A stretch of DNA of 64,000 bases. Origin: Streptomyces viridochromogenes DSM 40736 (GTDB taxonomy: Bacteria; Actinomycetota; Actinomycetes; Streptomycetales; Streptomycetaceae). This document shows positions 16,968 to 36,069 of this stretch, piece by piece (position 1 is the stretch's first letter; each line of letters starts with the position of its first letter). Both the position numbers and the translations under genes were made by a program. The stretch covers positions 1,335,560 through 1,399,559 of the forward strand of contig NZ_GG657757.1 in assembly GCF_000158955.1 (NCBI RefSeq), in the 5' to 3' direction. The notes under the pieces were generated by a model, which ran no database searches, was not told where the DNA came from, and worked only from the letters and a program-made list of their open reading frames with translations.

Positions 16968-17145
16968 GGGCCGCCAGCAGGTCTTCGGACTCGGGTTCAC
17001 CCGGTGCGGGACGCCTTCCCGGACGACTCGCGCGCCGTCCAGTGGCCGAGGCCCCGCCCGTCCCCCTCACCGCTGCGCGTCAGTTCCGGATTCGCACCGG
17101 ATTCCCTGACCCACGTACATGGGTTCGACTGGCCTCGGCAAGCTA
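16968..17145 (-). ncRNA. Cobalamin riboswitch
   Basis: Read on the minus strand, the order of conserved blocks matches the cobalamin (AdoCbl) aptamer: GGGAATCCGGTGCGAATCC at about 17111-17093, then GCCACTGG near 17046-17039, then the B12 box AGTCCGAAGACCTGC at about 16990-16976. A long GC-rich hairpin (about 16945-16972) follows and then the btuF start, so it probably acts on translation by hiding the start region, repressing import when cobalamin is abundant. The exact 5' boundary is estimated. Confidence 0.93.
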
Positions 17146-32341: not shown

Positions 32342-33649
32342 GTGACGTCCCCCACCGCCTCCTCACGAGGCTCCCGCCGGCCCGCCTGGGCGGGCCGCAA
32401 CTACTCCCTGCTGACCGCTGCCGCGGTCGTCACCAGCCTGGGCAGCCAGGGCGCCCTGGTCGCGGCGGCGTTCGCCGTGCTCGCGACGGGCGGCGACGGC
32501 GGCGACGTAGGTCTGGTCGCGGCGGCCCGGACGCTCCCGCTGGTGCTGTTCCTGCTGGTCGGCGGCGCGATCGCGGACCGGCTGCCCCGGCACCACGTGA
32601 TGGTCGCGGCCAACGCTCTGAACTGCCTCTCGCAGGCCGTCTTCGCCGCTCTGGTGCTGACCGGCGACGCCCGGCTGTGGCAGATGATGCTGCTCGCCGC
32701 CCTGGGTGGCACGGGCCAGGCCTTCTTCGGCCCGGCCGCCGAGGGCATGCTGATGTCCTCGGTCGAAGGCGAGCAGGCGGGCCGGGCGTTCGCGGTGTTC
32801 CGGATGGCGATGCAGGGCGCGGCTCTGGGCGGTGCCGCGCTGGGCGGTGCCATGGTCGCCGTGATCGGGCCCGGCTGGGTGCTCGCGGCGGACGCGGCGG
32901 CCTTCGCCGTCGCCGGGCTGCTGCGGGCCTTCCTCGACGTCGGCCACATCCCGCCGCGCACGCCCGGCGGCGGGCTGCTCGCCGATCTGCGGGACGGCTG
33001 GCGGGAGTTCTCCGGCCGGCCCTGGCTGTGGGCCGTCGTCGTCCAGTTCTCCATCGCCAACGCGGTCGTCGCCGCAGCCGACGCCGTCTACGGCCCGCTC
33101 GTCGCCCGCGACCACCTCGGCGGCGCGGGCCCGTGGGGCCTCGCCCTGGGCGTGTTCGGGGCCGGCACGGTCGCCGGGGCCGTGCTCATGACCCGCTGGA
33201 AACCCCGCCGTCTACTCTTCGCCGGCACCCTCTGCGTCTTCCCCCTGGCCCTGCCCTCGGCCGCACTCGCCGTACCGGTGCCCGTCGGCGTCCTGTACGT
33301 GGTGATGTTCGTCGCCGGTGCGACGGTGGAGGTGTTCGGGGTGTCCTGGATGACGGCCCTGCACCAGGAGATTCCCGAGGACAAGCTCTCCCGCGTCTCC
33401 GCGTACGACTGGTTCGGCTCCGTCGCCCTGGTGCCGCTCGCCACGGCCGCGGCCGGCCCCGCGGAGGAGGCCTTCGGCCGCTCGGCGGCCCTGTGGGGCT
33501 GCGCCGGCCTGGTCGTCCTGGTCACGGCGGCGGCGCTGTGCGTGCCGGACGTACGCAACCTGAGGCGCACGACCACGCACGTCACCCGCGGCGGGGCCAC
33601 CGGGAGCGAGTCAGCCGATGCCGAACGCCCCGTCGGGGGGCTCGGGTGA
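32342..33649 (+). CDS. MFS transporter (12 TM, enterobactin-exporter/MefA-like)
   Basis: 435 residues with about 12 membrane segments. The motif A-like loop is GGAIADRLPRHHVMV after TM2. Pattern and length match the MFS_3/TetA-like group of efflux proteins that includes macrolide and siderophore exporters. Substrate unknown. The GTG at 32342 is the best start; the 3' end overlaps the convergent methyltransferase-fold gene by 39 bases. Confidence 0.82.
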   Translation: MTSPTASSRGSRRPAWAGRNYSLLTAAAVVTSLGSQGALVAAAFAVLATGGDGGDVGLVAAARTLPLVLFLLVGGAIADRLPRHHVMVAANALNCLSQAVFAALVLTGDARLWQMMLLAALGGTGQAFFGPAAEGMLMSSVEGEQAGRAFAVFRMAMQGAALGGAALGGAMVAVIGPGWVLAADAAAFAVAGLLRAFLDVGHIPPRTPGGGLLADLRDGWREFSGRPWLWAVVVQFSIANAVVAAADAVYGPLVARDHLGGAGPWGLALGVFGAGTVAGAVLMTRWKPRRLLFAGTLCVFPLALPSAALAVPVPVGVLYVVMFVAGATVEVFGVSWMTALHQEIPEDKLSRVSAYDWFGSVALVPLATAAAGPAEEAFGRSAALWGCAGLVVLVTAAALCVPDVRNLRRTTTHVTRGGATGSESADAERPVGGLG

Positions 33650-34456
33650 CGGCACGGCGTCCTCGTCCCGCACCGCACGCGCGCCACCGATGAACTCCCG
33701 CAGCGCGGTGCCGTGTTCGACCCGGGCGGGAAAGGCGTCGGCGGCGGTGCGCCGGGCCAGGGCGGCGACGTCTACCGGTCGATGCCCGGCGACGAGCACC
33801 GCGTTCCCGAACCGCCGCCCCCGCAGCACCCCCGGCTCGGCGATCAGCGCGAGCTCCTCGAACACGGTGCCCAGCGTGGCGAGTTGCGACCGCAGAAAGG
33901 CGAAGGGCGCCGCGTCGGGCAGGTTCGCGAGGTAGACGCCGCCGTCCCGCAGCACCCGCGCGGCCTCACGGACGTACGCGACGGACGTGAGGTGCGCCGG
34001 CACCCGCGACCCGCCGAACACATCGGCCACGATGACGTCCGCCGAGTCCGAGGGACCGTTCTCCAGCCAGTCCCGGGCGTCCCCCGCATGCAGCGAGACG
34101 CGAGCCCCCTCCGGCAACGGCAGATGCCCGGCCACCAGTTCCAGCAGTCCGCGGTCGACCTCGACGACGTCCTGCCGGGACCCGGGCCGGGTCACGGCCA
34201 CATACCGGGGCAGGGTCAACGCGCCCCCGCCGAGATGCAGCACGTCCAACGCGGCCCCCGGCTCCCCCACCACGTCCAGCACATGCCCGAGCCGCCGCGC
34301 GTACTCGAACTCCAGATGCGTCGGATCATCCAGATCGACATAGGACTGCGGCGCCCCGTCGACAGTCAGCAACCAGGCCCGTTCCCGATCGATGTCGGGC
34401 ATCAGCTTGGCAAACCCGTGATCGACGGACCGGGCGACGGCGATGGCTTCCTTCAC
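33611..34456 (-). CDS. Spermidine-synthase-like protein
   Basis: 281 residues. Rossmann methyltransferase fold of the spermidine synthase family: VLHLGGGALTLPRYVAVTRP for the nucleotide loop, VVEVDRGLLELV with the acidic residue, and ADVIVADVFGGSRVP. The polyamine-binding residues of true spermidine synthases are not all evident, so the actual aminopropyl transfer activity is doubtful. GTG at 34456 is chosen by the VKEAIAVARSVDHG start; GTG at 34477 with GAGAGG ahead is an alternative. Confidence 0.8.
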   Translation of the reverse strand: MKEAIAVARSVDHGFAKLMPDIDRERAWLLTVDGAPQSYVDLDDPTHLEFEYARRLGHVLDVVGEPGAALDVLHLGGGALTLPRYVAVTRPGSRQDVVEVDRGLLELVAGHLPLPEGARVSLHAGDARDWLENGPSDSADVIVADVFGGSRVPAHLTSVAYVREAARVLRDGGVYLANLPDAAPFAFLRSQLATLGTVFEELALIAEPGVLRGRRFGNAVLVAGHRPVDVAALARRTAADAFPARVEHGTALREFIGGARAVRDEDAVPSPEPPDGAFGIG

Positions 34457-34492
34457 TCCTCCATTGTGCCGTTGCACAACGGGCCTCTCAGG

Positions 34493-34538
34493 GGGGCGGG
34501 GCCGTGCCGATGAGCGGCTCCGCCGCGTGGGCGCGACC
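34493..34538 (+). repeat. Dispersed intergenic repeat, copy B
   Basis: GGGGCGGGGCCGTGCC, GATGAGCGGCTCCGCC and GCGTGGGCGCGACC in order, matching the element at 24162-24210 (reversed there). It lies between the starts/ends of two minus-strand genes. The GCGGCTCCGCC core forms a small hairpin. Confidence 0.75.
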
Positions 34539-34569
34539 AGCCGCAACGGCCCCGCAGCCCCCCACCACC

Positions 34570-35739
34570 TCAACCCACCACGGTCACGGTCCCCGCCCCC
34601 ACAGTCCGCCCGCCCTCACGGATGGCGAACCCGAGCCCCGGCTCCAACGGCACCTCCCGCCCCAGCTCCACGGTCATGGCGACCGTGTCACCGGGCCGGG
34701 CCACCGCCACCTCACCGAGATCGACGACCCCCACCACATCCGCGGTCCGGATGTAGAACTGCGGCCGGTACCCACTGGAAACCGGCGTCGTACGCCCACC
34801 CTCACGCGCGGACAGCACGTACACCTGCGCGGAGAACCGCCGCCGCGGCTTCACACTCCCCGGCGCGGCCACCACATGCCCCCGCCGAACCGCGTCCCGC
34901 GGCACCCCCCGCAGCAGCAACGCCACGTTGTCCCCGGCCTGCGCCTCCTCCATCGGCTTGCCGAAGGTCTCGAGCCCGGTCACCACGGTCTCGACGCCCG
35001 CCCCGAGCACCTCCACCCGGTCACCGACGCGCACCACGCCCCGCTCCACCGCACCGGTCACCACGGTCCCCCGGCCGGTGATGGTCAGCACGTTCTCCAC
35101 GGACAGCAGGAACGGCGCGTCCAGATACCGCTCCGGCATCGGCACATAGGTGTCCACCGCGTCGAGCAGCGCTTCGATCGAAGCCGTCCAGCGCGGGTCC
35201 CCCTCCAACGCCTTCAGTCCCGAGACGCGTACGACGGGTACGGAGTCACCGCCGTAGCCGTGCGCGGTGAGCAGGTCGCGGACCTCCAGCTCGACCAGGT
35301 CGGTCAGCTCCTCGTCGCCCGCGTCGGCCTTGTTGAGGGCGACGACGATGTGGTCGACGCCCACCTGCCGGGCGAGCAGCACGTGTTCGGCTGTCTGCGG
35401 CATGATCCCGTCGAGCGCGGAGACGACGAGGATCGCCCCGTCGAGCTGCGCGGCGCCGGTGACCATGTTCTTGACGTAGTCGGCATGGCCCGGCATGTCG
35501 ACGTGGGCGTAGTGCCGGGTGTCGGTCTCGTACTCCACGTGCGCGATGTTGATGGTGATGCCGCGCGCCGCCTCCTCGGGCGCCCGGTCGATCCGGTCGA
35601 ACGGCACGAACGCGCCGGTGCCGCGGTCGGCGAGGACCTTGGTGATGGCGGCCGTCAGGGTGGTCTTGCCGTGGTCGACATGACCCATGGTGCCGATGTT
35701 GAGATGCGGTTTCGTGCGGACGTAGGCCGTCTTGGACAT
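34570..35739 (-). CDS. tuf3: Elongation factor Tu 3
   Basis: 389 residues. G1 [10 protein letters not shown]2 RGITI, G3 [13 protein letters not shown]4 NKADAGDEE (main EF-Tu has NKCD) and all three domains are present. Differences from major EF-Tu include [15 protein letters not shown] and a divergent C-terminus. Streptomyces genomes carry a divergent third EF-Tu (SCO1321 in S. coelicolor) reported to be stringent-response-linked. It delivers aminoacyl-tRNA to the ribosome, probably under special conditions. It stands alone, not in the rps-fus-tuf operon, and has a structured 5' leader. Confidence 0.95.
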
Positions 35740-35790
35740 GGCTGTACCTCGAAGCGTCTAGTCATGAAGTGGGACCCCGAGGACCTGCCC

Positions 35791-35833
35791 GACCCTCCCC
35801 TTGCGGGGTCCGCCGGACGAACCGGAGAGGGTC
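35791..35833 (-). promoter_or_regulatory. Predicted three-way RNA structure in the tuf3 leader
   Basis: Read on the minus strand: an outer GACCC/GGGTC stem encloses CCGG-TTCGT-CCGG and CCCC-GCAA-GGGG hairpins, the latter with a GNRA tetraloop. It lies 52-94 bases before the tuf3 ATG, so probably in its 5' untranslated RNA. It may be an attenuator or a stabilising leader; no known riboswitch class matches. Confidence 0.5.
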
Positions 35834-36069
35834 AGCTTCGGGCGCCGTCGGTGAAGGCGGTGAGATCGACGGCAGCCTTCGGGGCATCCGTGACGACGGA
35901 TGCTGCGAGGGCGAAGGCGTGCCGGAACATGACATCGATCATTGCCGACGCTTTACCGCACGTCGAATGGTTTTCGGCTGCCTCGGCGCGGACTCTCGCA
36001 CGGCCGGCTGTGACGCTCGTGAGACGATCCATACGGCGATCACACACATGTGTCGGTTAGTGTCACCGG
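35834..36069. other. Divergent promoter region between tuf3 and a TVP38-like gene
   Basis: About 236 bases with no convincing gene. A 36-codon frame on the minus strand (35832-35942) lacks a ribosome site. AT-richer stretches near 35935-36000 and 36030-36065 (TGTGTCGGTTAGTGTCAC) may hold promoters for the two genes. Confidence 0.45.

Follow-up and report, generated by a model that had tools for sequence, protein, structure and literature searches.

The gene tuf3 (34570–35739, minus strand, ATG at 35739) lies within a 64-kb window, the whole stretch of Streptomyces viridochromogenes DSM 40736 DNA that was analysed, and encodes a variant elongation factor Tu of 389 amino acids that shares 64% identity with the housekeeping EF-Tu encoded in the same 8.65-Mb genome. 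Known since the 1990s as an EF-Tu expressed under stress, EF-Tu3 has also been described as drug-resistant; Olsthoorn-Tieleman 2007, as cited in PMC12309360, is the source for its resistance to GE2270A, and van Wezel 1995, to which the same article refers, places tuf3 in its title apparently under positive stringent control. The gene is activated by WblC, and WblC and HrdB were both found at the tuf3 promoter of S. coelicolor (PMC7157823). A Shine-Dalgarno (SD) sequence, GAGGU, is present at 35746–35750 (minus strand), and the leader is read on the minus strand from 35833 down to 35740. Directly 3′ of tuf3 there is a spermidine-synthase-like gene (33611–34573, minus strand; named by inspection only). 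The sole Rfam match within the 64-kb window is a cobalamin riboswitch at 16973–17133 (minus strand, 82.1 bits).

Promoters activated by WblC consist of a GAAAWY box, 3 bp, a −35 element of the published motif TKGMNN, 16–19 bp and a −10 element, with transcription starting 7–8 bp further on (PMC7157823). The same arrangement precedes tuf3 on the minus strand: the box GAAAAC (35970–35975), 3 nt, the −35 element TCGACG (35961–35966), a 17-nt spacer and the −10 element AATGAT (35938–35943), so that by sequence comparison the block corresponds to a WblC/WhiB7-activated promoter. Across 134 leaders the AAA run of the box is nearly invariant, the TTCGAC block at −35 is conserved and so are the A and T of the −10 element. 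By the published spacing rule (PMC7157823) transcription of tuf3 is predicted to start at 35931/35930. A start downstream of 35791, which the earlier note on this DNA had named as fatal to its idea of a structured leader, is unlikely, since the only conserved promoter-like block places the start near 35931/35930.

An unannotated upstream ORF and its internal hairpin

The predicted start is one base before, or at, the ATG of an unannotated upstream ORF (uORF) of 32 codons, MFRHAFALAASVVTDAPKAAVDLTAFTDGARS*, that runs on the minus strand from the ATG at 35930 to a TGA (35832–35930) and was recognized by its translation and conservation. Because its ATG coincides with the predicted start or trails it by one base, the mRNA is probably leaderless; leaderless mRNAs arise from about a fifth of the primary starts of S. 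coelicolor (PMC4895711). The UGA stop occupies 35832–35834, and helix S1, described below, starts with the G and A of this codon.

We fetched tuf3 loci by protein similarity and parsed 224 of them (some genomes are represented twice, leaving about 205 distinct leaders). Each of the first 134 loci, almost all from Streptomyces, has the uORF, with 29–60 codons and nearly always an end of GARS* or GARR*; in the full set the length ranges from 25 to 72 codons. The uORF, with a C before its ATG, is present in all 222 leaders that have S1. Despite the variable lengths, an ATG at the promoter-given distance shares the frame of the stop in every one of the 208 leaders with a detected box, and in most leaders from other families the box sits about 45/46 nt ahead of this ATG. 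The pN/pS ratio is 0.37 in the uORF frame, whereas the two other frames give 0.83 and 1.63; being low only in frame, it indicates that the reading frame is under selection, and the uORF is probably translated. Conservation and coding signature together thus give the conserved uORF characteristic of ribosome-dependent uORF attenuators. It is a gene that standard annotation likely misses, and searches of the Pfam and NCBIfam HMMs with the uORF peptide produced no match.

In nearly all leaders the uORF ends with GGC-NNN-(CGA or GAG)-NNN-UGA. The last codons (35834–35845, minus strand) are nearly fixed at the nucleotide level: GGC, mostly GCC, and CGA in 215 of 222 cases. Among the arginine codons of Streptomyces CGA is rare, and its fixation near the stop points either to slow decoding or to a constraint on the RNA. 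Control by bldA was considered and rejected, as a TTA codon occurs in none of the uORFs.

The uORF carries a hairpin of its own, H0, with the sequence GCAUCCGU-cguc-ACGGAUGC (35884–35903, minus strand; +28 to +47 relative to the uORF start). Of the 198 distinct uORFs, 178 show a tetraloop stem of 5 bp or more centred at this place; stems of at least 7 bp occur in 68%, versus 2.4% after shuffling of codon order. Cells of the alignment in which both bases of a pair have changed number 48, against 15 in shuffled sequences and 0–4 when the arms are slid. Since H0 covaries within the uORF, part of the conservation of the peptide (SAVADA, PAVAGA) likely reflects RNA structure. By analogy with classical attenuators, the place of H0 suggests a pause hairpin.

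Helices S1 and S2 of the leader

The earlier note had proposed a structured leader at 35740–35833, with an outer stem enclosing a three-way junction with a GNRA tetraloop. The outer stem is present exactly at 35833–35791 on the minus strand, 52–94 bases before tuf3: the 5′ arm GACCCUCUCC (35824–35833) pairs with GGGGAGGGUC (35791–35800), forming S1, which is paired and covaries in all families seen. The interior of the proposal did not hold up. The minimum free energy (MFE) fold is a single long hairpin instead of a junction, the junction is not conserved either, most Streptomyces have GCAG in place of the tetraloop GCAA, and the CCCC required by the inner stem is frequently missing outside Streptomyces. 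The 43 nt from 35833 to 35791 fold at −25.5 kcal/mol (z −2.49; three of 200 shuffles were equally stable), while the 94-nt leader stretch has a z-score of −1.90 (seven of 200 shuffles as stable). Folding energy alone is moderate evidence; it is conservation that decides.

What conservation reveals inside the loop of S1 is the 5′ arm of a second helix, S2: GGACCCCG (35804–35811, minus strand), likewise paired and covarying, has its downstream partner in CGGGGUCC (35772–35779, minus strand), beyond the 3′ arm of S1. Two helices in pseudoknot topology, each backed by covariation, make an H-type pseudoknot, whose folding in the cell we infer from sequence comparison. Within Streptomyces the S2 arms are nearly invariant and covariation is uninformative there. 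Across genera and families S2 takes the forms GGACCCC/GGGGUCC, GGACCUC/GAGGUCC, GAGCCCC/GGGGCUC and GAGAACC/GGUUCUC as well as GUGACCCG/CGGGUCAC, CGGGACCG/CGGUCCCG, GCGGCCCG/CGGGCCGC, CAGAACCC/GGGUUCUG and GGGAACCCAC/GUGGGUUCCC. In 48 distinct arm sets of S1 and S2, 97.9% of cells are paired, and double-change cells number 62 versus 13.4 in shuffles and 2–13 with slid partners; the rule used for extracting the arms favours complementarity, and slid partners, shuffles and a fixed geometry served as controls. By parsimony, S1 has undergone about 11 double changes and the seven core pairs of S2 about 14, counts that are estimates, as the tree was built from 156 nt of the gene and is rough. Covariation across homologous leaders, the lack of which the earlier note would have taken as decisive against it, is thus strong, though other genera and families were needed to reveal it.

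It is very improbable that a DNA operator or chance palindromes account for the GC-rich inverted repeats. Many stable hairpins do arise in GC-rich DNA, and the single-sequence z-scores above are modest; yet the covariation is strand-specific, with G-U in 41 cells and A-C in only 3 on the tuf3-sense strand, an excess that points to selection on RNA and not on a DNA palindrome, and the topology is that of a pseudoknot with fixed loops.

The geometry of the pseudoknot is nearly constant: S1 has 10–12 bp, S2 mostly 7–10, and loops L1, L2 and L3 have mostly 9–15, 1–4 and 9–12 nt, respectively. The mean estimated energy is −34.0 for the pseudoknot (with a penalty of 9.6 kcal/mol) versus −32.7 for the best nested fold, and in most leaders the pseudoknot estimate is near or below that of the nested fold. 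In some single leaders S2 complementarity is no better than in shuffles, and S2 is weakened in three Streptomyces records. Between S2 and the tuf3 start there are 18–133 nt of variable sequence. A stimulator of frameshifting or readthrough was rejected by inference, given this varying distance and a stop and stem with no spacer between them. This compact H-type pseudoknot has none of the hallmarks of a T-box or of a tRNA-like element.

Conservation of the uORF, H0, S1, S2 and the overlap of the stop with S1, and covariation of all three helices, are thus shown by sequence comparison.

Distribution among actinobacteria

The uORF, its stop and the stem occur together in 222 of the 224 tuf3-type loci, from at least five actinobacterial families. 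One of the two exceptions (L020) is a housekeeping tuf; the other (L305) has a displaced stop. In L305/L309 a CGA stands in place of the overlapping TGA and the next in-frame stop follows four codons on, while S1 and S2 are kept. One locus missed by the parser (L293), re-read as L308, has the complete arrangement.

A pseudoknot that acts apart from the uORF, as an mRNA stabilizer or a protein-binding site, with the stop overlap incidental, would explain why L305 retains both helices although its uORF stop has moved. We consider this improbable: although the uORF varies in length from 25 to 72 codons, its stop coincides with the first pair of S1 in 222 of 224 leaders. L305 is a natural variant for testing the overlap.

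With the cut-offs used, tuf3 was found in 240 of 296 sampled Streptomyces genomes, in 53 of the 101 genomes sampled from the family and in 53 of the 394 sampled from the class, where the three weakest matches (66% identity) are probably housekeeping genes. A model of the leader, R1, has one significant match in the genome studied here and 42 matches in the 394 class genomes, nearly all of them beside tuf3 loci found by the protein search. Two R1 matches without an intact tuf3 precede decayed tuf3 genes. Since matches to R1 sit at tuf3 or at decayed tuf3, the leader appears to be dedicated to this gene. The two decayed loci, L306 (genome G730) and L307 (genome G088), both in Streptomyces, have the promoter, an apparently GTG-started uORF, the stem and S2 before a decayed, shortened tuf3; in these two genomes the leader has outlived the intact gene. 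A spermidine-synthase-like gene lies 3′ of the decayed tuf3 in both loci as well, possibly a long-lived neighbourhood or operon. In the plasmid collection the leader was found on one Streptomyces linear replicon, again upstream of tuf3, while the search of the phage collection produced no match.

Proposed ribosome gating of the pseudoknot and its possible output

The leader probably regulates tuf3, and we regard a ribosome-gated attenuator as the probable form of that control. Transcription by WblC and the main sigma factor would start at or beside the uORF AUG, and ribosomes would load at the very 5′ end of the mRNA; H0 would probably slow the RNA polymerase and let the first ribosome catch up. 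A ribosome reaching the uORF stop would cover the 5′ arm of S1 and hold the pseudoknot open. If ribosomes fail to reach the stop, for instance because antibiotics block elongation, the pseudoknot would fold, and the folded form would be the most likely state to favour tuf3 expression.

The positions fit such gating. For a ribosome with UGA in its A site, positions +5 to +14 from the P-site codon are those of the 5′ arm of S1. This is the stretch of mRNA inside the entry channel, covered by the ribosome. As predicted from the sequence, S1 thus has the structure seen in uORF attenuators, starting in the stop codon and keeping its 5′ arm within the covered stretch; a ribosome terminating there would open S1 but hardly anything beyond it, so that folding of the pseudoknot would report whether ribosomes finish the uORF. 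The earlier note had suggested post-transcriptional control by a ribosome, a protein or a tRNA. The ribosome gains support from a conserved uORF that terminates within the opening base pairs of the stem; the tRNA and the protein find none. Neither the uORF ending in the stem, nor the promoter, nor the hairpin within the uORF had figured in that first reading.

Against gating, the sequence reveals no output stage, as blocking of the SD is not conserved and the spacing between S2 and tuf3 varies, and L305 keeps both stems despite its displaced stop. The pseudoknot can also refold after termination, and gating therefore needs steady ribosome traffic or co-transcriptional timing.

Transcription, mRNA stability and translation are all candidate levels for the control of tuf3. 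One candidate output is translation attenuation of the erm/cat type, in which a ribosome on the uORF would select a form of the leader that hides or frees the SD. The genome studied here gives some reason to consider it: the MFE fold pairs CCUCGGGG (35782–35775, overlapping S2) with CUUCGAGG over the SD, in competition with S2, and the unpaired value of the SD is 0.47 with the pseudoknot versus 0.23 with a ribosome at the stop. The corresponding means across 205 leaders were 0.46 and 0.40; 28 leaders changed in one direction and five in the other, an inconsistency for which we rejected SD sequestration as a general output. In most Streptomyces the sequence CGAAGC at the end of the uORF could base-pair with GCUUCG beside the SD, but this pairing is absent outside the genus and sometimes broken even within it, and it was set aside too. 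As S2 lies at anything from 18 to 133 nt from the tuf3 start, we think translation attenuation of this type unlikely.

The same switch with its output at conditional transcription termination, by Rho or at a U-less hairpin, the pseudoknot or the uORF ribosome deciding, has a better, if still tentative, claim. In position and shape H0 resembles the pause hairpin of an attenuator, uORF-coupled premature termination occurs in actinobacteria, for example at ilvB1 and whiB7 (PMC13236596), and variable spacing to the SD suits an output independent of spacing. What this reading has to contend with is the lack of a U-tract: a stretch of eight positions with six T is found after S1 in only four of 205 leaders. 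An attenuator with an intrinsic terminator, as in trp or ilvB1, was rejected, the leader having no terminator-like site with a U-tract.

As to the direction of the ribosome-gated switch, a WblC-type promoter and a product reported to resist EF-Tu inhibitors make an attenuator that raises tuf3 upon elongation failure the simplest reading; we give about even chances to the folded pseudoknot being the form that favours expression. Pausing of ribosomes at termination could turn the direction round, and the conserved CGA and the GAR(R/S)-stop end would fit such a pause.

More speculatively, and with odds we put somewhat against it, the leader may exemplify a class of termination-gated pseudoknot sensors, in which the stop of a leaderless uORF placed in stem 1 would report translational throughput or EF-Tu function, inducing the drug-resistant spare EF-Tu upon inhibition of the main one, both in addition to WblC and independently of it. 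Part of this reading is the length of the 5′ arm of S1, which is about that of the mRNA stretch under a terminating ribosome. More generally, the conserved uORF and pseudoknot make the regulation of tuf3 directly testable and provide a mechanism through which translation trouble itself could raise a replacement elongation factor.

A search of Rfam 15 with the leader gave no match at the gathering score and only sub-threshold chance matches with E-values of 1.9 and above (E up to 10). Taken as an RNA, the leader would represent a cis-regulatory family spread across the actinobacteria that Rfam 15 lacks and whose sensor includes a stop codon; we know of no precedent for a stop codon being part of a pseudoknot stem. 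No description of the tuf3 leader was found in the literature searched, and an earlier mention in the tuf3 papers of 1995 and 2007 is possible.

Ribosome-dependent uORF attenuators are known, in actinobacteria as well (PMC13236596, PMC12421871). Those of whiB7/wblC and ilvB1 (cited in PMC7157823 and PMC13236596) use an actinobacterial uORF to couple ribosome progress to the next gene, as the tuf3 leader would, and whiB7/wblC belongs to the same resistance regulon as tuf3. At ilvB1 there is a Rho-independent terminator with a U-tract, whereas the tuf3 leader has no U-tract and its pseudoknot begins in the stop codon. The mycobacterial leaderless poly-cysteine uORF attenuators (Canestrari 2020, as cited in PMC13236596) have a leaderless short ORF at the 5′ end of the mRNA that regulates the next gene, as is probable for tuf3. 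Unlike them, the tuf3 uORF has no run of one sensor codon, and its conserved part is the stop overlapping the pseudoknot. The erm/cat attenuators would share with tuf3 a drug-responsive leader peptide ahead of a resistance gene, and in this one genome the SD can be paired; in tuf3, however, SD sequestration is not conserved and the gene supplies a substitute for the drug target rather than a methylase or an acetylase. In repY-repZ of plasmid ColIb-P9, a pseudoknot governing the next gene is itself controlled by whether a leader peptide is translated as far as its stop. There the pseudoknot adjoins the repZ start and activates its translation, whereas the tuf3 pseudoknot lies 18–133 nt upstream of the start and has the uORF stop within its own first stem.
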